From NCBI RefSeq assembly GCF_030546575.1, contig NZ_JAUOTN010000004.1, positions 1 through 64,000 of the forward strand: DNA of 64,000 bases. The letters run 5' to 3'. The translations under genes were made by a program, and so were the position numbers. The notes beneath the pieces are model-generated. The model was not told the DNA's origin. It saw only the letters and a list, made by a program, of their open reading frames with translations, and did not search any database. Below, in pieces: positions 31,975-41,501 of this stretch. How positions within the stretch are numbered: the stretch's first letter is position 1; every line of letters starts with the position of its first letter. This stretch comes from Pontibacter coccineus. GTDB taxonomy: Bacteria; Bacteroidota; Bacteroidia; Cytophagales; Hymenobacteraceae.

Positions 31975-32161
31975 ATGGGCCAGAGGCCCCATCATAGCCG
32001 TCACGAGCGCGGATGCTCGCCCCATTAGCGCTGGTGCATCCAACTAACCCACTCCCCTCCCCCGTCACAACTATTTTCTCCTGCTTTCAGTAAACACCAT
32101 GTATAGCAGACGCACTATGTACCAGGTGTGCTGTTATGCCTTTCTGAAAGAGAATCACCTT

Positions 32162-32656
32162 ATGAAAACCTTATATATCATGCGTCATGCCAAGTCCAGC
32201 TGGAAGTTCGAGGAGCTGAGCGACCATGACCGACCTCTTAACAAACGCGGCCGTACGGATGCCCCGCTCATGGGGCAGGAACTGGTGGCCAACAATGCCA
32301 AAATCCAGCTCATCCTGTCAAGCCCTGCGGTGCGGGCAATCACTACAGCCACGCTGGTGGCCCGCGAACTCGACTACGATGCCGATGACATTGCAATAGA
32401 TGACCGTATTTATGGCGCCAGCGCGGCAGAACTGCTGGAGATAGTCCGCGAGGCACCCGCTAACGTGGACAGCATGATGATGGTGGGCCACAATGATGCC
32501 ATCTCGGAGTTTGCCAACATGCTGTCGCCCAAGCATCTCTCCAGCATGCCTACAGCCGGGGTAATCGCGCTTCGGTTCGACTGCGAAAGCTGGTACGACA
32601 TCAACCGCAGCAATGCCGGGCTTTTGTTTTACGAAGTGCCCAATAATAGCAAATAA
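32162..32656 (+). CDS. sixA: SixA-type phosphohistidine phosphatase
   Basis: 164 residues from the ATG at 32162 (MKTLYIMRHAKSSWKFEEL); a 21-residue upstream extension from 32099 has no support. This is a compact histidine phosphatase without the large cap domain. It has the RHA motif with catalytic H9, PLNKRGRTDAPLMG, SSPAVRAITTATL and the second histidine in MMVGHNDAISEFA. SixA dephosphorylates phosphohistidine on phosphotransfer proteins. It is 94 bp upstream of ppk1 on the same strand, an arrangement that suggests a link with polyphosphate metabolism. Confidence 0.88.
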   Translation: MKTLYIMRHAKSSWKFEELSDHDRPLNKRGRTDAPLMGQELVANNAKIQLILSSPAVRAITTATLVARELDYDADDIAIDDRIYGASAAELLEIVREAPANVDSMMMVGHNDAISEFANMLSPKHLSSMPTAGVIALRFDCESWYDINRSNAGLLFYEVPNNSK

Positions 32657-32749: not shown

Positions 32750-34852
32750 ATGGAAACTAATACCGAAGATAAAAAACCAACCATCACGCCGCTGATCAAC
32801 CGTGAGCTTAGCTGGCTTGCCTTTAACTACCGCGTTCTGCAGGAGGCGAAAGACCGCACTGTGCCGCTACTGGAACGCATCAAGTTCATGGCCATCTTCT
32901 CGTCGAACCTCGACGAGTACTTCAAAGTGCGCGTGGCCACACTCAAGCGCCTCATCAAACTCAAAAAGAAGACCCGCGACAAGCTGTCCGAAGACCCGGC
33001 CGATACTTTTGAGCAGGTGATGCAGGAGGTGAAACGCCAGCAGGAAGAGTTCGGCGAAGTTTTCAGGGGAGGCATCCTGGCTGATCTTCGCCAGCAGAAC
33101 ATCCACCTGCTTACCGAAAACGATCTGAACAAAGGGCAGCAGAAGTGGGTGCAGACATACTTTGCCGAGCACATACAGCCCCACATCCTGCCGCTTTTGC
33201 TGGACGACACCGAGACGCACTTTTTCCTGAAAGACCAGACCGTATACCTGGGCGTGCAACTCTTCGACCCAAAAGAGAAAGACCTGAAGCCGGAGCGCTT
33301 CTCCATGCTCGAGATACCCACCAAGAAGCACGGCGGGCGCTTTGTAAAACTGCCTACGGTGGATGAGCAGCGCTACGTGATGTTCCTCGACGATGTGATC
33401 CGCTGCTGCCTGCCTGCCCTATACCCGAATTATAGCCGCTTCGAGGCGCATGCCGTGAAAGTGTCGCGCGACGCTGAGCTGGATATAGAAGAGGAGGTAT
33501 CAGGAAGTCTCATGGCGAAGATCCAGAAAAGTCTGAAGAAACGCGAAACCGGCTATCCGGCCCGCCTACTCTATGACCCCGTTACGCCCAGACCCATGCT
33601 GGAGGCCATCATGGCGCATACCGGCATATCGGAAGATGAACTGGTGGAGGGCAGCAAGTACCACAACTTCCGCGACTTCTTCGGCTTCCCCGACTTTGAC
33701 CTGCCGGACCTGAAGTACTCGCCGCAGCCTACTTTGGTGCACCCGCTTTTAGAGAAGGAAGGGAGCCTGATTGAGGCCATGAAAAAGCAGGACTACCTGG
33801 TGCACTACCCTTATCAGTCCTTCGATTACGTGCTGCGCCTTTTTGAGGAGGCCGCCAACGACCCTAAGGTGACTGCCATGAGCGCCACCCTCTACCGCGT
33901 AGCCGAGGACTCGGCCATTGCCAAATCGCTGGTGAAGGCGGCTAAGAGCGGTAAACTGGTAACCGTGGTGGTGGAGCTCAAAGCCCGTTTTGACGAGGAA
34001 TCGAACATCTTTTGGGCTGGCAAACTGCAGAAAGCCGGCGCCAACGTCATCCTGGGCCTTCCTGACCTCAAAGTGCACACCAAGCTGGGCCTGATCACCC
34101 GCAACGAAGAAGGCCAGTTGGTAAATTACGCCTACCTGAGCACGGGCAACTACAACGAAGACACTTCCAAAATTTACGCCGACCATGCCCTGTTCACCTC
34201 CAACCAAACCATCACGCAGGACGTGGAGCAGGTATTTAACTTCTTCATCGATCGCCAGCTCGACAAGAAATTCAAGAAGTTGCTGATGGCCCCGATCAAC
34301 ATGCGCGACCGTTTTGTGGACCTGATCAACCGGGAAATAAAAAATGCCAGCAAAGGCAAGCCTGCGTCCATGATCCTCAAGATGAACGCCCTGCAGGACG
34401 AGCGCATGATCAAGAAGCTGTACGCCGCCAGCCAGGCCGGTGTGAAGATCGAGCTGCTGGTGCGTGGCATCTGCTGCCTGGTGCCGGGCGTAGAGGGGCT
34501 CAGCGAAAACATCCGGGTACGCAGCATCGTGGATCGCTACCTGGAGCATGCGCGGGTATACATCTTCCACAACGACGGCAAGGAAGAGTACTTCGTGGCC
34601 TCCGCCGACTGGATGACGCGCAACCTGAGCCGACGCGTAGAAGTGGCTTTCCCGATCCTGCAGAAAGACCTGGTGGAGCAGTTGCGCACAATCATTGACC
34701 TGCAGCTCGCCGACGACACCAAAGCCCGCGACATCGACAACAGCTATGTGGAGCAGGTAAGCCCCACCCACATCCGGTCGCAGTACGCCACGTACGAGTA
34801 TTTGCGCAAGCTCATACCCGAAGGAATGGAACCGACCCGGAAATCGAAGTAA
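32750..34852 (+). CDS. ppk1: polyphosphate kinase 1
   Basis: 700 residues, the usual size. Family landmarks are PLINRELSWLAFNYRVLQEA near the N-terminus, the FMAIFSSNLDEYFKVRV segment, YPYQSFDYVLRLFEEAANDPKV, SATLYRVAEDSAIAKSLVKAA, VELKARFDEESNIFWAGKL and KVHTKLGLITR, which carries the autophosphorylated histidine. YLSTGNYNEDTSKIYADHALFTS and a second PLD-like histidine region near the C-terminus (RVYIFHNDGKEEYFVASADWMTRNL) follow. It makes polyphosphate from ATP reversibly. Probably co-transcribed with sixA. Confidence 0.95.
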   Translation: METNTEDKKPTITPLINRELSWLAFNYRVLQEAKDRTVPLLERIKFMAIFSSNLDEYFKVRVATLKRLIKLKKKTRDKLSEDPADTFEQVMQEVKRQQEEFGEVFRGGILADLRQQNIHLLTENDLNKGQQKWVQTYFAEHIQPHILPLLLDDTETHFFLKDQTVYLGVQLFDPKEKDLKPERFSMLEIPTKKHGGRFVKLPTVDEQRYVMFLDDVIRCCLPALYPNYSRFEAHAVKVSRDAELDIEEEVSGSLMAKIQKSLKKRETGYPARLLYDPVTPRPMLEAIMAHTGISEDELVEGSKYHNFRDFFGFPDFDLPDLKYSPQPTLVHPLLEKEGSLIEAMKKQDYLVHYPYQSFDYVLRLFEEAANDPKVTAMSATLYRVAEDSAIAKSLVKAAKSGKLVTVVVELKARFDEESNIFWAGKLQKAGANVILGLPDLKVHTKLGLITRNEEGQLVNYAYLSTGNYNEDTSKIYADHALFTSNQTITQDVEQVFNFFIDRQLDKKFKKLLMAPINMRDRFVDLINREIKNASKGKPASMILKMNALQDERMIKKLYAASQAGVKIELLVRGICCLVPGVEGLSENIRVRSIVDRYLEHARVYIFHNDGKEEYFVASADWMTRNLSRRVEVAFPILQKDLVEQLRTIIDLQLADDTKARDIDNSYVEQVSPTHIRSQYATYEYLRKLIPEGMEPTRKSK

Positions 34853-34928: not shown

Positions 34929-35978
34929 TTAGCGGTTCTGGGCACGCTCGAGCAGCTTGCGGGGTGGCACCGCGTAAAGCTCTATCCCTATGTAGCCCGC
35001 TCCTTTCAGCGTGTTTTTGATCAGCTCGTCGCGTGAGCCTACATCATCGAAAGCACGGTGGCGGTAATACTGCCGGAACCCGCCTTCCACGGCAAACCAC
35101 AGAAAATCGTATATCTCCTGCTCCAGTCGCAACAGGCCTTTGATGTCGGTGCGCCGCAGCTCGATGTCGTTGAACTGCGAGAGCGGCGGTTCGCTGGCGT
35201 AGAGGTTGTAGCTGGCTCCTTCGATGCGGTAGCCGGTATAGAGGAGCGTTTTTTCAGACACGTTGTAGCGCACCCGCAGGTTAGCCGGGAAGATGGACTC
35301 CACACCCCAGCGGTCGTTGAAGGTGCGGTTGTAGATGATGCCCGGGTAGAGGCGCTGCCGCCCGAAGGTATAGCCCAGCTGGAAACCGACGCCCCAGGCA
35401 AAGTCAGGGCTGCGCTTCCAGCCATAGCCCACGTCTACCGTGGTTTTCAGGTAATCCGATACGTTGACATTGTCGCGGGTATAGTCACCGTTGAGCTCAC
35501 CCTTTGCGCGCACCAATATAAAACGCACCTCGTCAAACGAATGCAGGAAAGCCAGTTGCAGGCCCAGACTCTTCAGGTTTTTGTCTTCCAGGTTGCGGTA
35601 CAGGCTGTAAGAGGCAGGCGATACGCTCTCAAAGTTGAATTCCTCAAACTTGTGGTCTATCCCCAGAATCAGCTTGGTATTGGGCTTGTTCATGACAGGC
35701 GCCAGTGCCCGTACAAAGAACTTGTTGTGCCGCCGTACCCGCGCCCGTCCGTTGCCTATCTCCGGGTTGTCCGACTCCGATTCGATGTCGAACTGCGGGA
35801 GGCGCTCATAGCCGATCACAATGCCCCGGCTTTTGCCCATGCCCCTTACGCCGGGGCTGGCGTATTCTTTGGTTTGTTTTTGCACATCGGACAGGTCCTG
35901 TTCGGTTTCCTGGGCCAGTGCGTGTTCTCCTATCAGGAGCAAAGGTAAAAGGAGTAGTTTAGGTAGGGTTAATTTCAT
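34929..35978 (-). CDS. outer-membrane beta-barrel protein, DUF6268-like
   Basis: 349 residues with a signal peptide (MKLTLPKLLLLPLLLIGEHA, cleavage near ALA-QE). The mature part alternates amphipathic strands and turns as in barrels (KFFVRALAPVMNKPNTKLILGIDHKFEEF; WGVGFQLGYTFGRQRLYPGIIYNRTF; LLYTGYRIEGASYNLYAS). By pattern it resembles the DUF6268 family of Bacteroidota barrels; function unknown. It ends in RKLLERAQNR rather than an aromatic, slightly unusual. Separated from the phosphoesterase gene by a terminator. Confidence 0.75.
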   Translation of the reverse strand: MKLTLPKLLLLPLLLIGEHALAQETEQDLSDVQKQTKEYASPGVRGMGKSRGIVIGYERLPQFDIESESDNPEIGNGRARVRRHNKFFVRALAPVMNKPNTKLILGIDHKFEEFNFESVSPASYSLYRNLEDKNLKSLGLQLAFLHSFDEVRFILVRAKGELNGDYTRDNVNVSDYLKTTVDVGYGWKRSPDFAWGVGFQLGYTFGRQRLYPGIIYNRTFNDRWGVESIFPANLRVRYNVSEKTLLYTGYRIEGASYNLYASEPPLSQFNDIELRRTDIKGLLRLEQEIYDFLWFAVEGGFRQYYRHRAFDDVGSRDELIKNTLKGAGYIGIELYAVPPRKLLERAQNR

Positions 35979-36058: not shown

Positions 36059-39000
36059 TTAGAATAAAAAGCCGAAGCTTAATGTCCACAGCCGTTCCAC
36101 ATCGCCTTTGGCGTAAGTCAGCACGATGACGTTCTTCTGCATGATGTCGGCCCACACACCACCGCCTATACCTGTATGCAGGCTTCGGAAAAAGGCAGCA
36201 TCGCGTTCGCCGTCCTGGTACACGCGGCCCACATCATACAAGCCCAGCACCCCGAGCCTGCCCGGCGTCAGGTATAGGTTAAAGTCCAGGAGCGACAGGC
36301 GGGCTTCGGCGTTGGCATAGATTGCGCTGCGGCCGGCAAAGCGGGTGCGACGGTAGCCGCGCATATTGTCCATGCCGCCCAGGGTGTTGGCCTGGTAGAA
36401 GCGGAAGTCGCCGAAGTTATGCGCTGCCCCCAGACGACCCGCCCAGGTGAGCTGAAACGGAAAATTCGGGGTCAGGTAGAAGGCAAACTCAGAGCTTATG
36501 TTGGTGTAGCTTAATTTTTCCCCATCAGTCTGCTTGTTGTAGCTCATGCGGTTGTGCAGGCGCATGCCGATGCGCGGGTTCTTCTGGTTGCCCTCTCCCA
36601 GCACATCCATATCGGCAAATGCCATCACGCCCACATAGTGCTGCGATTCGAAACGGCCCTGCTCCACGTCGTAGGTGCCCGGCTCCATCCGACCGCTTAG
36701 CGCCTCGTTCACTAGGTAGGTGTCGTGCTCGGAGTTCACCACCCGGAAGCGATCGTAAGTAGGACCTATACCTACTTTGAAGAAAGGGGCCAGGTTGTTG
36801 TTGAGCGTTGCGCCCACGTTCACGCGCTTAAACCGAACGCGGTAAAAGGAGTCGTCCTCGCTGTCCTGCTGGCGGGTGTCGTTGCCGTAGCCGTAGAAGT
36901 TGCGCTGGTACTGCGGTCCCTGTATGGCTGCATTCACACCGATGTTCCAGTTGCCGAACACCTGCCGCACATCGCCGGTATAGCGCACATTAAATGAGTT
37001 TGTGTAAAAGGCGTAATTGCCCTCCAGCAGGTGCTCCGAAGCATAAGGCGACTTGCGGAACTTGTGCGTGCGGGCCAGTATACCTGCTCCTATAAACAAG
37101 CCATCGTCCACGTTGTACTCCAGCGACAGCCGAGGCCCCAGGTATGGCAGCTTGTAATTGTCCCGGTCATAGAAATTCACATCCGGACTGATGCTGGTAC
37201 GGACTTTTGTCTCAGGCCCGAAGCTGAACACATTGCCTTCTTCTGTATCATACACGATCGTGTGCCGTTTAATGCCGGCCACACGCGAGTTGTCGGTGAT
37301 CACATCCTCGTCGTTGCCCCCGATAATACGCACCACGATCCCATCGTTCACATCTCCCTTCACTTCAAATATGTCTTTGCCGCGTTGCCCGTACAGGCGC
37401 AGCTCGTTGGTTTCAGGGGTATAGAAGGTGCGCTTGTAAAGTGTGTCGCGCAGCTCACCTTCTTTGTTGATCTTGTATACCGTCAGATGAGTTTCTTCAT
37501 CATTCAATCGGTTTACCACAAAGTGCTCGTGCTTATCGCTGCCGGCCACATCCACCATCTTGGCGAGGTGCTCGTAGTAGGCTTCGGCCGCTTGCGGCAG
37601 CTTGTCGCGGCGTGAGCGCAGTTTGGCTTTGATATCCTCGCCCGAGATAGCCCGCACCTCTTCCGGCCACTGGTTGATGGCCTCCTCGATCACCTGATCC
37701 GTTACGCCGGCCTGTATCTCTTTGGCAATGCGGATCCAGTCCTGCCGGGTGATGGCCGAGGTGAAGGTGCGGTCGATGGTCAGCGCGCTCAGGTTGAGCC
37801 CCACAATGTCGTCGAAGTCGTGGCCGAAGTTCTGGACGTTGCGCACGCCCCACTTCCGGGTGGCCAGCCAGGGTATAATTCCGTCGGCTTTGAAGAACAC
37901 CTGGTCGCGGTCCTCGGGCACCGGAATGTATACCTTGCCGCTGTCGGTCTTCTCCTCTTTCCAGCGCCACTGCCCCTCATGGCGGTCCCAGTCGCCCACC
38001 AGCATATCGAACAGGCGGGCGCGCACAAACTCTTGCTGGTTCACTTGGTTGTCGTTGTCCTGCCGCAGTTCCTTCAGCACCTTGTCGGTGCCCACCAGGT
38101 TCTCGGCAAAGCCTAGGCTCTTTACATCCTCGTGGTTCTCGTCGGCATCCTCTTCCAGAAAAGCCAGTGTGTTGCTGAACTCATCCATGTACTGGCGCAG
38201 GTAAGGCGTCTGCGGGATGAACACGAGTTTCGGGTTAGTATGGAATACGCCGGCGCCATCTGCCAGCCTAGGTATAGCCAGCGCGCCGTAGGGGTGCTGG
38301 GCCGAGATCTGGTCCTGCAGCAAGGCTTTGGCAGCGGTCTGGCGCAGGTACTCCGGCAGTGCCATGGTCGGATCTTTGTCGACGGTGCGCAGGGTGTACT
38401 CACGGGCGTCGGGGTTACGTACTTTCAGCGAAGCCGTTTGCTTGCCACCCCCTTTCTGGTAGGGCGTGAGCCCGCCCAGCTCGTTGCGCATGTCCAGCAG
38501 TGGCACCTCCACCGGCGTGGCCCACTCGCGGCGGTAGTGGTCGCCCAGCATGGTGCGGCGCAGCCCCCTGGCAGTATAGCTATCGTTGGCAGCCACTACT
38601 ATGGTGCTGTCGGCATAGTTGGTTTCGTCCACAATCGTGGACCGCTTGCGGCGCGGCTCTTTGGCGTAGAGCGGCGTCCGGAAGGTCATGGTGCCCTCTG
38701 AACCGTCGCCTTCCGGCTTCCAGTATTCCACCCAGGCTTCCCCGTTCTCATAATACATCAACTTGGCAAAGCCCTTCACCTGGTGGGTATACATGGCATT
38801 ACCGCCACCCTTCACGTGCTGTATCTTACAGCCTGATCCGCTGACAATGTGGGCCAGCTTGTTATGCTTGAAATGCTGCAGCGAGTGTTCGTGCCCGGCA
38901 GCGTACACGATGTTATCATACTTATCAAAGATGTTGAGTAGCCCCTCGATGTAAGCGTTGTAGCGCGGGTGCGGAATGTCCTGCAGGATGCCACCGTACT

Positions 39001-39868
39001 TGCGGGCAAACGGGTAAATGGACCCGATGACGGGCAACGGCAGGTAGATCCAGTCGCGTAGCATGGTGAGCGGGAAAACGTGGTCTTTCAGCGTGAAGAA
39101 TCCGCCATGGTTACCGCGCGTGAACAAAGGATGGTGCGCTACCACCACGATGTTGGAGCCCTGGTGCTTTTCTATAATGTCTTCCAGCTTCACCAGGAAG
39201 TCGGCCTCTGTGGATGCCCAGCAGTTGCTGCCCGCTCCGTAAGGGCGCTCCCAGGGGTGCAGCCACCATTCAGAGTCCAGAGCAATCAGCACAAGGTCAT
39301 CGCTGATCTTCACTTCATAAGGACCCGGGCAGCCATCGCCCGGCACATAGAAGTCACCGCCTACCACAATGCCCTCTTCGGTGAGGTACTCGTTCACATA
39401 GTTCTGCTGGCGCACCACAAACTCGAGCCCGCCGCGGCCGCTGTGGTTCCAGTCGTGGTTGCCCGGAATCATGTATTTTTCGCCCTGGTAGCCCCGCAGC
39501 ACATCGAGCTGGGCGTTGAGGCGCTGCTCCGACACTTCCCGGTCGTAGCGCCCGGGCTCGGGCAGACCGTTGTGGTACACGTTGTCACCCAGAAAGATGG
39601 TCGTGCTTTGTGCGCCGGCTTCGCTCATCTGCTTTTTCATGAGCTTAAGCGAAGGCTCCTGCTGCTTCAGGTCAGGCGCGCCCACATCGCCGATGAGGAA
39701 AACGGTGTAGTTTAGCTTGTTGCCAGCTTTGGGCTCGGTTTGCTGCCAGTTGAGCACATCGCGGCTGTAGTAAGGTTTTTGGGTAGCACAGGCTTGCAAG
39801 AGCACTAAGAAAAGGCCTACAGCCAGGGGGCGCAGGATAAGGGGTATAAGGTGAAGACGGTTTTTCAT
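36059..39868 (-). CDS. metallophosphoesterase / kinase-like / BamA-type barrel fusion lipoprotein
   Basis: From the ATG at 39868 it has 1269 residues. The signal MKNRLHLIPLILRPLAVGLF is followed by LVLLQAC, a lipobox with C27. Residues 50-360 are a calcineurin-like phosphoesterase (GDVGAPD, GDNVYHNG, GNHDWNH, VVAHHPLF, AAGHEHSLQH). A long middle region contains RARLFDMLVGDWDRHEGQWR (about 613) and PEDRDQVFFKADG (about 646), which recall the catalytic loop and metal motif of HipA/FAM20/CotH-type kinases; that is inference. The last 370 residues are an Omp85/surface-antigen barrel with the LGGMDNMRGYRRTRFAGR motif and terminal FGFLF. Confidence 0.82.
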   Translation of the reverse strand: MKNRLHLIPLILRPLAVGLFLVLLQACATQKPYYSRDVLNWQQTEPKAGNKLNYTVFLIGDVGAPDLKQQEPSLKLMKKQMSEAGAQSTTIFLGDNVYHNGLPEPGRYDREVSEQRLNAQLDVLRGYQGEKYMIPGNHDWNHSGRGGLEFVVRQQNYVNEYLTEEGIVVGGDFYVPGDGCPGPYEVKISDDLVLIALDSEWWLHPWERPYGAGSNCWASTEADFLVKLEDIIEKHQGSNIVVVAHHPLFTRGNHGGFFTLKDHVFPLTMLRDWIYLPLPVIGSIYPFARKYGGILQDIPHPRYNAYIEGLLNIFDKYDNIVYAAGHEHSLQHFKHNKLAHIVSGSGCKIQHVKGGGNAMYTHQVKGFAKLMYYENGEAWVEYWKPEGDGSEGTMTFRTPLYAKEPRRKRSTIVDETNYADSTIVVAANDSYTARGLRRTMLGDHYRREWATPVEVPLLDMRNELGGLTPYQKGGGKQTASLKVRNPDAREYTLRTVDKDPTMALPEYLRQTAAKALLQDQISAQHPYGALAIPRLADGAGVFHTNPKLVFIPQTPYLRQYMDEFSNTLAFLEEDADENHEDVKSLGFAENLVGTDKVLKELRQDNDNQVNQQEFVRARLFDMLVGDWDRHEGQWRWKEEKTDSGKVYIPVPEDRDQVFFKADGIIPWLATRKWGVRNVQNFGHDFDDIVGLNLSALTIDRTFTSAITRQDWIRIAKEIQAGVTDQVIEEAINQWPEEVRAISGEDIKAKLRSRRDKLPQAAEAYYEHLAKMVDVAGSDKHEHFVVNRLNDEETHLTVYKINKEGELRDTLYKRTFYTPETNELRLYGQRGKDIFEVKGDVNDGIVVRIIGGNDEDVITDNSRVAGIKRHTIVYDTEEGNVFSFGPETKVRTSISPDVNFYDRDNYKLPYLGPRLSLEYNVDDGLFIGAGILARTHKFRKSPYASEHLLEGNYAFYTNSFNVRYTGDVRQVFGNWNIGVNAAIQGPQYQRNFYGYGNDTRQQDSEDDSFYRVRFKRVNVGATLNNNLAPFFKVGIGPTYDRFRVVNSEHDTYLVNEALSGRMEPGTYDVEQGRFESQHYVGVMAFADMDVLGEGNQKNPRIGMRLHNRMSYNKQTDGEKLSYTNISSEFAFYLTPNFPFQLTWAGRLGAAHNFGDFRFYQANTLGGMDNMRGYRRTRFAGRSAIYANAEARLSLLDFNLYLTPGRLGVLGLYDVGRVYQDGERDAAFFRSLHTGIGGGVWADIMQKNVIVLTYAKGDVERLWTLSFGFLF

Positions 39869-40202
39869 AAAATTCGGTGTGTACGGGGTGTCCTGTCTAG
39901 CAAAAGCAAGTGTGCCGGCCACAGCACATCGTCTGGCGATAAGGTTGCTGCCGTAAAAGCGATGGTTGGGTTTGGTAGTGCATGGTTGGTAGCAGCGCCT
40001 GAATTAGCATTGGGGCTACGGCAGGGCTGAGATAAGTAACGTAGGGCAGCTGCATTAAGTTTTTGCTTTACTATATAGGGCATAGTGTGCGTTGTGGCCG
40101 GCCCTTTCAACAAAAAGCGGTATTCACCGTAACGGCAAAAGAATAATAGCATACCTACAACCGCCGCTCACAACTGTGCACTACTTGCAGAGCTCCCTGA
40201 CA
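39869..40202. other. divergent intergenic region
   Basis: 334 bp between the phosphoesterase-barrel gene and the HD-PycTM gene. It should hold both promoters, but I see no clear -33/-7 pair. No gene and no iterated-motif copy. Confidence 0.5.
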
Positions 40203-41501
40203 ATGGCGGCAGACACCGTTATGGAAGAACAAGATATCGTCAAGCAAGCCAGTGAGTACGTTTTCAGGCTTTTTAAGGAGCAGCTGTCCAAGAAGCTTGT
40301 CTACCACAATTACAAACACACCTTCGAGACTGCCAACGAAACCCGGCAACTGGGCGAACTGTACGGTTTGAGCCCGGAGGAACTGCAGGACTTGGAGCTG
40401 GCCGCCTGGTTTCATGACACGGGTTATATCAAAGCCTATGACGGACATGAGGAAGAAAGCGTAGGCTACGCCACTTCCTGGCTAGAGGAGAAGAACTACC
40501 CGCCCGAGCGCATTGCCCGTGTAACCGATTGCATCATGGCCACCAGGCACGGCATTAAACCCCAGTCCCTGCTGCAGGAGGTGATCGTGGATGCAGACAT
40601 GGCCAACATCGGCAAAGAAACCTTTTTTGCCACAGCCGAGCTGCTGCGTGTGGAGTGGGAGATCTTCAAAGACAAGTTTTTCACGGATCAGGAGTGGGCG
40701 CAGTTTCAGATGGAGTTCCTGCTCTCCACCACCTTCTACACCGCCAAGGCCCAGCACAAATATGCCGAGCAGCTCGGCCTGAACATACAGGAGCAGCGCA
40801 ACCAGTTGCAGAAGGAGTCGAAGAAGCTGAAGAAGGAGGAAAAGGAGCAGCGCGAGACACTGGCCCAGCCCAAGCGCGGCATCGAAACCATGTTCCGCAA
40901 CACCTACCGCACGCACCTCAACCTGAGCGCCATCGCCGATAACAAGGCCAACATGATGATCAGCCTCAACGCCATCATCATGTCCGTGATCATTACTTAC
41001 CTGAGCACCAAGACCTCCATCACAGGGGCTGAGTTTGCCCAGCACCGTTCGCTGCTCATACCAGTGGGCACGTTGCTGCTCACCACGCTTGGCTCGGTGA
41101 TCTTCGCCATTATTTCGGCGCAGCCGGAGGTGACAAGTTTCACTTTTAACCGGAAACAGATCAACAGCAAAAAGGTAAACCTGCTCTTCTTCGGAAACTT
41201 CACCAATATACCGCTGGAGGATTTTCAGAACGGTATGCACGAGATCATGCGCGACAAACAATCGCTTTACACGAACATGATCACCGACATCTATTACCTG
41301 GGTGAGGTGCTGAGCCGCAAGTATAAGATCCTGCGCGTTTCCTACTCTATTTTTATGGTAGGGCTCATATTGACCGTGATCGCCTTCGGCATCTCCATTG
41401 CCCTGTACGACGAACCTATGCTGGAACCGACCACGCAGGAACAAACCCCACAAGAACCAGCCGCACAGGAGCAAGCCCCGCAGGAGCAGACCAACAGGTA
41501 A
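40203..41501 (+). CDS. HD-domain phosphohydrolase fused to a Pycsar effector (PycTM) domain
   Basis: 432 residues from the ATG at 40203; the frame is open further upstream, but that part is not protein-like. Residues 10-190 are an HD domain (H35, H39 in YHNYKHT, H71-D72 in AAWFHDTGY, VDADMANIG). A charged coiled coil follows (about 195-225). Then comes the PycTM/DUF5706 signature RNTYRTHLNLSAIADNKANM and ISLNAIIMSVIITYL, with helices at about 258-276, 288-312 and 399-421. PycTM is the membrane effector of cyclic-pyrimidine antiphage defence. The tail is a (Q)EQTPQEPAAQ repeat. No cyclase gene is nearby. Confidence 0.82.
   Translation: MAADTVMEEQDIVKQASEYVFRLFKEQLSKKLVYHNYKHTFETANETRQLGELYGLSPEELQDLELAAWFHDTGYIKAYDGHEEESVGYATSWLEEKNYPPERIARVTDCIMATRHGIKPQSLLQEVIVDADMANIGKETFFATAELLRVEWEIFKDKFFTDQEWAQFQMEFLLSTTFYTAKAQHKYAEQLGLNIQEQRNQLQKESKKLKKEEKEQRETLAQPKRGIETMFRNTYRTHLNLSAIADNKANMMISLNAIIMSVIITYLSTKTSITGAEFAQHRSLLIPVGTLLLTTLGSVIFAIISAQPEVTSFTFNRKQINSKKVNLLFFGNFTNIPLEDFQNGMHEIMRDKQSLYTNMITDIYYLGEVLSRKYKILRVSYSIFMVGLILTVIAFGISIALYDEPMLEPTTQEQTPQEPAAQEQAPQEQTNR

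Follow-up and report, generated by a model that had tools for sequence, protein, structure and literature searches.

A predicted kinase-like domain between a phosphoesterase and an Omp85 barrel in Pontibacter coccineus

Features of the fusion gene

The window, that is, the whole stretch of 64,000 nucleotides (nt) analysed here, covers positions 1 to 64,000 of contig NZ_JAUOTN010000004.1 from Pontibacter coccineus (assembly GCF_030546575.1). Its minus strand carries a gene for a fusion protein, in which a calcineurin-like phosphoesterase (MPE) and an Omp85 barrel enclose a middle domain. Modelling indicates that this middle domain is an undescribed family of protein-kinase-like fold, with PI4KII and CotH as nearest structures, then CtkA, HipA and Fam20. 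The open reading frame (ORF) translates to 1269 amino acids (aa), which is the chain length given in the original prediction, and its parts are as follows.

36059..39868 (-): whole gene, phosphoesterase, kinase-like domain and Omp85 barrel, 1269 aa from an ATG (translation, Pfam, models)
39788..39868 (-): putative signal peptide with lipobox LLQAC and Cys27, residues 1-27 (by eye)
38669..39712 (-): MPE region, residues 53-400, with motifs GDxG, GDNxY, GNHD, AHH and GHEH (PF00149 and motif check)
37559..38509 (-): predicted kinase-like fold, residues 454-770, model positions 60-376 (AlphaFold2, Foldseek, VIA-align)
38435..38452 (-): glycine-rich loop GGGKQT, residues 473-478, flanked by two N-lobe strands (conservation and model secondary structure)
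38375..38389 (-): RTVDK, residues 494-498; R494 and K498 are candidates for the basic residue of strand 3 holding the donor phosphate (conservation)
37961..38011 (-): catalytic-loop motif FDMLVGDWDRHEGQWRW, residues 620-636; D628 is the catalytic candidate, with Q633 at +5 (conservation, profile register)
37880..37915 (-): metal-site motif EDRDQVFFKADG, residues 652-663, with D653 and D655 (conservation, profile register)
37157..37558 (-): beta-rich module at the junction of kinase-like domain and barrel, residues 771-904 (model secondary structure)
36062..37144 (-): 16-strand Omp85 barrel, residues 909-1269, with MRGYR in loop 6 (model, structure comparison)

Three Pfam matches were obtained for the protein, and a POTRA family was absent among them. 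Metallophos (PF00149) matched residues 55-261 with 26.4 bits against a cut-off of 21.5, Omp85 (PF01103) matched residues 1094-1235 with 22.2 bits, slightly below the cut-off of 24, and ShlB was a weak match over the same barrel stretch. For residues 262-1093, scanning Pfam up to E 10 gave no family. The sole NCBIfam match was the Omp85 family model at residues 1094-1269, below its cut-off, and the kinase-like domain had no Pfam match up to 0.1 and no NCBIfam family.

Relatives were collected in two ways. Searching 148 sampled genomes of the phylum with a profile yielded 71 family members, selected independently of any motif. A second, larger set of at least 80 loci (L058-L137) was fetched from named genomes with the pattern DWDR[HS]x[DGE]QW; the 80 loci listed hold 69 fusions and 11 others, with flanks up to 5 kb. 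Among the matches listed, the domain in the closest named genome is 96% identical to the window copy.

A second model, of residues 395-1269 (predicted local distance difference test, pLDDT, 89.4; predicted TM-score, pTM, 0.85), has 16 long strands following the kinase-like region. The best VIA-align matches of the barrel are BamA (Z 26.0) and TamA (Z 25.6), and the RGY/FR motif of loop 6 is present in 65 of the 69 fusions listed. The phosphoesterase motifs GDxG, GDNxY, GNHD, AHH and GHxH are like those of purple acid phosphatases; the MPE part had no match at 0.01 in a PDB sequence search.

The original prediction called the protein a fusion lipoprotein. Phosphoesterase and barrel do stand in one chain, but the lipobox is an assignment by eye. 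A lipobox pattern run across relatives was crude (25 of 65 fusion ORFs passed, and several matches were plainly internal), so lipidation is suggested, by eye, for the window protein and the copies in its own genome only.

Fold of the middle domain

Residues 395-912 were modelled by AlphaFold2 with 73 sequences as input, and the model obtained a mean pLDDT of 90 and a pTM of 0.90. In the Foldseek ranking against the PDB, CtkA (5.2e-6), PI4KIIalpha (1.1e-5) and CotH (2.5e-5) stood at the top, and DrFam20C1 (3.2e-3) followed at rank 16. VIA-align gave PI4KIIbeta as the best match (Z 15.6, root-mean-square deviation 4.4, 258 residues aligned), tied with CotH (14.8, 4.0, 254), and then CtkA (14.0, 4.7, 238), HipA (11.3, 4.3, 218) and Fam20A (10.9, 5.0, 240). 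Sequence identities in these structural matches were 10-17%, and every one of the best 50 VIA-align rows was a protein or lipid kinase. From the model we are nearly certain that the middle domain has a two-lobed protein-kinase-like fold. The original prediction had likened this region to atypical kinases, and it is these, not an unrelated fold, that the search matched.

With sequence as the query, a PDB search using the domain gave six matches, of which none was a kinase and the best had E 0.11, and a search using the 73-row domain profile gave no match up to E 10.

Relatives and architectures

The 71 profile matches are distributed over 54 of the 148 genomes. By ORF length they comprise 39 fusions (open frames of 1202-1395 aa), 21 proteins of domain plus barrel (699-963 aa), eight standalone proteins (502-586 aa) and three short ones (426-429 aa). 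All three short copies extend no further than profile position 397-398 of 532 and miss the beta-rich module, so the kinase-like part seems separable from the module behind it. In a FastTree tree of 53 sequences the fusion, domain-plus-barrel and standalone forms are intermingled, and a single fusion event is therefore not claimed.

The own genome of the window protein also encodes three standalone counterparts of its residues 415-909, which are 532-542 aa long and 40-43% identical to them; contig C5 carries a tandem pair and C1 the third copy. A lipobox was seen by eye in these copies. In the tandem pair (L006, 6484-9746), the protein P0002 reads WSRH, with Ser at the position of the candidate catalytic D628, and from sequence the two may possibly represent a natural pair of active and inactive forms. 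The C1 copy (L007, 6555-8153) lies 48 nt behind a gene that by eye is glucose-6-phosphate isomerase-like. About 9 kb from it, L007 17311-18540 encodes a standalone phosphoesterase, which is 37% identical to that of the fusion and has an N-terminal hydrophobic stretch.

The 32 pattern matches among viral contigs include no gene for a relative, and phages gave no match. Plasmids gave five matches in 72,556 records, all predicted to be non-mobilizable. These results therefore give no sign of a mobile-element gene.

Conservation of the catalytic-type residues

Both motifs quoted in the original prediction are present in the window protein, FDMLVGDWDRHEGQWRW beginning at residue 620 and EDRDQVFFKADG at residue 652. 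Among the 71 family members, D626 is Asp in 67, D628 in 63, D653 in 66 and D655 in 64, and R629 is Arg in 67. E572 is kept in 67 of 70 members, and K498 and R494 in 66 and 64 of 68 aligned members, respectively. So the acidic residues of the predicted site are indeed conserved. D628 and D653 occur together in 61 of the 71 members (38/39 fusions, 14/21 domain-plus-barrel proteins, 6/8 standalone and 3/3 short).

In the larger locus set the D628 motif is no evidence, because it was part of the search pattern. K498, D653 and D655 lie outside this pattern, and together with R494 they are invariant in 73 aligned rows among the matches listed.

In the profile alignments, GDWDRHEGQW lines up with CotH GNWD and with HipA NCDDHTKN, and PEDRD lines up with CotH PYDYD. 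The likeness to the catalytic and metal motifs of HipA, FAM20 and CotH kinases, from which the original prediction started, is borne out in register for CotH and HipA and in fold by the model. The hhalign profiles were compared with Bacteroidota CotH and HipA sets, with 60 shuffles each as control. The domain scored 34.3 against CotH (best shuffle 26.1) and 24.9 against HipA (best shuffle 21.7), while the true relatives CotH and HipA scored 49.2 against each other. In a Pfam scan of 41 diverse members, the matches were Fam20C at 0.0013 (one member), the unrelated Dna2 at 0.0021 and CotH at 0.028 (one member). With PADLOC, the motif region (residues 607-636) had one weak match, PDC-M03A at E 0.0031.

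Some copies deviate. Seven domain-plus-barrel relatives (L038, the first copy of L039, and L040-L044) have decayed catalytic motifs; L039 carries one decayed and one intact copy, and L054 two intact copies. The protein of L205 (7144-10887) is a fusion without D628, in which ADFGKHEDN replaces GDWDRHEGQ, and it is the second fusion copy in its genome. This fusion has probably lost its kinase-like site, judging from the residues, and the start of its phosphoesterase also looks altered by eye. The idea that loss of the site is confined to unfused copies was rejected on account of L205. A covariation of D628S with Q633N is not supported, since one copy has S and N, one S and Q, and one D and N.

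Gene neighbourhood

Four neighbouring genes in the window are of interest.

40092..41501 (+): HD domain plus PycTM membrane domain, divergent neighbour of the fusion gene, start codon uncertain (ORF list, Pfam)
34929..35978 (-): outer-membrane barrel with DUF6268, on the same strand and 80 nt downstream of the fusion gene (ORF list, Pfam)
32750..34852 (+): polyphosphate kinase 1, PPK1 (Pfam, NCBIfam)
32099..32656 (+): SixA-like histidine phosphatase, PF00300 (homology)

Of the 148 genomes, 68 have an HD or PycTM homologue. They comprise 48 of the 54 that carry the domain, among them all 36 with a fusion, and 20 of the 94 that lack it (Fisher p 3e-16, uncorrected for relatedness). Such a homologue lies within 15 kb of 33/39 fusions, 7/21 domain-plus-barrel genes, 2/8 standalone and 0/3 short genes. 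The 80 loci listed agree with this, with an HD or PycTM homologue in 55 of the 69 fusion loci versus one of the 11 others.

A cyclase homologue was found in eight of these 80 loci. At L198 (1095-3032) and L203 (5277-7238) a class III cyclase with TPR repeats has the fusion on one side and a PycTM gene on the other; HD-PycTM is there split into two or more genes, with a separate HD gene in L203. Together with a class III cyclase, the HD-PycTM gene may form an undescribed signalling pair. For the neighbourhood, the Pycsar defence system was also considered, in which a pyrimidine cyclase adjoins a PycTM effector. The own genome has two PF00211 cyclase matches, neither on contig C7. One of them is 450 nt (between matched parts) from a second HD-PycTM gene on contig C5, at a site roughly 9 kb away from the tandem pair of standalone proteins.

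In at least 18 of the 54 genomes, PPK1 and the domain are no more than 20 kb apart. This makes at least 20 pairs, where about 0.9 would be expected in genomes of 4 Mb; PPK1 overall is present in 136 of the 148. Twelve of the 18 linked genomes belong to one family, mostly with 11-14 kb between the genes, and the other six come from five further families. The flanks of the 80 loci listed hold PPK1 in 22, the SixA-like phosphatase in 16 and the DUF6268 barrel in 19. A gene of SdiA-regulated type was observed in 27 of them, often no more than 1-2 kb from the fusion start.

The HD/PycTM linkage and the proximity of the domain to PPK1 are new here. The links to HD-PycTM, nucleotide-cyclase, SixA and PPK1 genes suggest a role in phosphate or nucleotide signalling.

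Proposed function and alternatives

On the whole we lean, with some reserve, to the reading that the Omp85 'Metallo' protein carries an undescribed kinase-fold family which works as a phosphotransferase at the outer membrane. The residues kept suggest that the kinase-like domain is probably catalytically active in the fusion proteins. The N-terminal part of Omp85 proteins is normally periplasmic, and the phosphotransferase would be tethered to the outer membrane and probably face the periplasm, in the place which POTRA domains take in other Omp85 proteins. D628 would be the catalytic Asp, D653 (with D655) and Q633 would hold the metal, and GGGKQT would cover the phosphates. The domain might then phosphorylate an envelope component, which could be a protein, a glycan or a lipid, and the phosphoesterase of the same chain might take off that phosphate or a related one. 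That kinase and phosphatase oppose each other on a shared envelope substrate is possible, though we regard it as rather doubtful.

Several observations speak against a working phosphotransferase. Kinases of this fold carry a metal-binding Asn, or Glu in FAM20, five residues behind the catalytic Asp; here this +5 position (Q633) is Q in 63 of 71 members and N in three. D628 or D653 is lost in ten of the 71 relatives, one of them a fusion. In the hhalign comparison the unrelated pair of MPE and CotH already scored 28.2, and support for kinase kinship at the sequence level is weak, apart from the register of the motifs; the Fam20C match counts for little because the unrelated Dna2 scores 0.0021. 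In the phosphoesterase, thirteen motif positions are each kept in 50-63 of the 69 fusions listed, so a minority of fusions has probably lost the phosphoesterase site, and such damaged motifs would weaken the case for an obligate enzyme pair. The main puzzle is the phosphate donor, since the periplasm is generally taken to lack ATP.

The donor puzzle may exceed this family, since 24 of 61 genomes sampled from the phylum carry CotH, which is likewise presumed active outside the cytosol. From the PPK1 linkage, polyphosphate is a donor worth testing, no more. A fuller scheme, in which an outer-membrane kinase without cytosolic ATP would use PPK1-made polyphosphate or an exported nucleotide to modify envelope components, the MPE would undo the modification or trim the polyphosphate, and HD-PycTM and the cyclase would control it, seems to us very improbable at present.

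The kinase fold might also serve without chemistry, as a pseudoenzyme whose binding or scaffold module replaces the POTRA domains. Losses of D628 or D653 in 7/21 domain-plus-barrel proteins, 2/8 standalone proteins and 1/39 fusions would suit this, as would the Ser of P0002 and the fact that ATP is not expected at that location. However, both Asp are kept in all but one of the fusions, and the invariance of K498, D653 and D655 in the rows listed was not imposed by the fetch pattern, so we consider a pseudoenzyme unlikely. Other chemistry or another substrate on the kinase fold, such as AMPylation, glutamylation, or lipid phosphorylation near that of PI4KII, is a somewhat unlikely choice in our judgement. 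PI4KII is the top VIA-align match, tied with CotH, and SelO and SidJ exemplify other chemistry on kinase folds, but these readings and protein phosphorylation fit the present observations alike.

A different location is conceivable too, if the barrel or a lipoprotein export route places the MPE and the kinase-like domain on the cell surface, in the manner of the patatin-Omp85 protein PlpD and its lipase. Both topologies of 'Metallo' Omp85 are discussed in the main text of Heinz and Lithgow (2014, PMC4104836), and the lipobox seen by eye in the own-genome standalone copies is in line with export. In the window protein, Cys27 is not followed by an acidic run (CATQKPYY), and this counts against display. 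The surface-export signal of Bacteroidota lipoproteins is such an acidic run, and we take surface display to be on the unlikely side. Finally, chance likeness of short motifs in an unrelated fold could be read from the lack of any Pfam or NCBIfam family and of any PDB sequence match worth the name. The structural match by VIA-align refutes it unless the confident model is wrong, and the conservation is also contrary to it, so that we give it hardly any credit.

A kinase-fold family unnamed in Pfam and NCBIfam, found in 54 of 148 genomes and tied to polyphosphate and cyclic-nucleotide genes, sits where kinase folds are hard to explain. An Omp85 subfamily of obscure role thus leads to a concrete question, namely the donor and the substrate of an outer-membrane kinase.

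Comparison with known systems

The closest described system is the Omp85 subfamily 'Metallo', which Heinz and Lithgow (2014, PMC4104836) defined by PF00149 and a barrel without POTRA; the window protein likewise has PF00149, a barrel with RGY/FR in loop 6 and no POTRA. Thus the phosphoesterase-Omp85 fusion, which the original prediction had included in its novel surface machine, is not novel in itself. The main text of that paper terms PF00149 a metalloprotease, and the Pfam name is calcineurin-like phosphoesterase. The word kinase occurs zero times in that main text, and the kinase-like middle is unmentioned there. Searches of open-licence PubMed Central (PMC) papers gave no account of a kinase-like domain in an Omp85 protein; the MPE-Omp85 fusion is already known, and the kinase-like middle seems undescribed within the literature so covered. 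The Legionella pan-kinome paper deals with other families; its Lani_1194 family has Flavobacteriales relatives, mostly methyltransferase-bearing, and looks different.

Among the kinases, FAM20 is like the window domain in structure (Fam20A, Z 10.9), and only one of 41 domain members touches the Fam20C Pfam model (0.0013). FAM20 proteins are kinases that act outside the cytosol and have a DRH motif; they belong to the secretory pathway of animals, which contains ATP, and carry E at +5. CtkA and HipA share the fold, and the HipA motif N-x-D-x-H-x-K-N is in register with the window domain, but these are not outer-membrane proteins, and HipA_C (PF07804) has no match in the own genome at the gathering score. 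PI4KII is the best VIA-align match (Z 15.6 over 258 residues) with an identity of 10%, yet the PI4KII lipid kinases are eukaryotic and cytosolic.

CotH differs in that PF08757 matches neither the own genome nor the window domain at the gathering score, and to our knowledge no phosphoesterase-barrel architecture occurs in the set of CotH proteins used. It has its own ATP-binding mode, as PMC12189002 describes. CotH (PF08757; PDB 5jd9) nevertheless resembles the window domain in its fold, and both its Asp motif and its P-x-D-x-D motif are in register.

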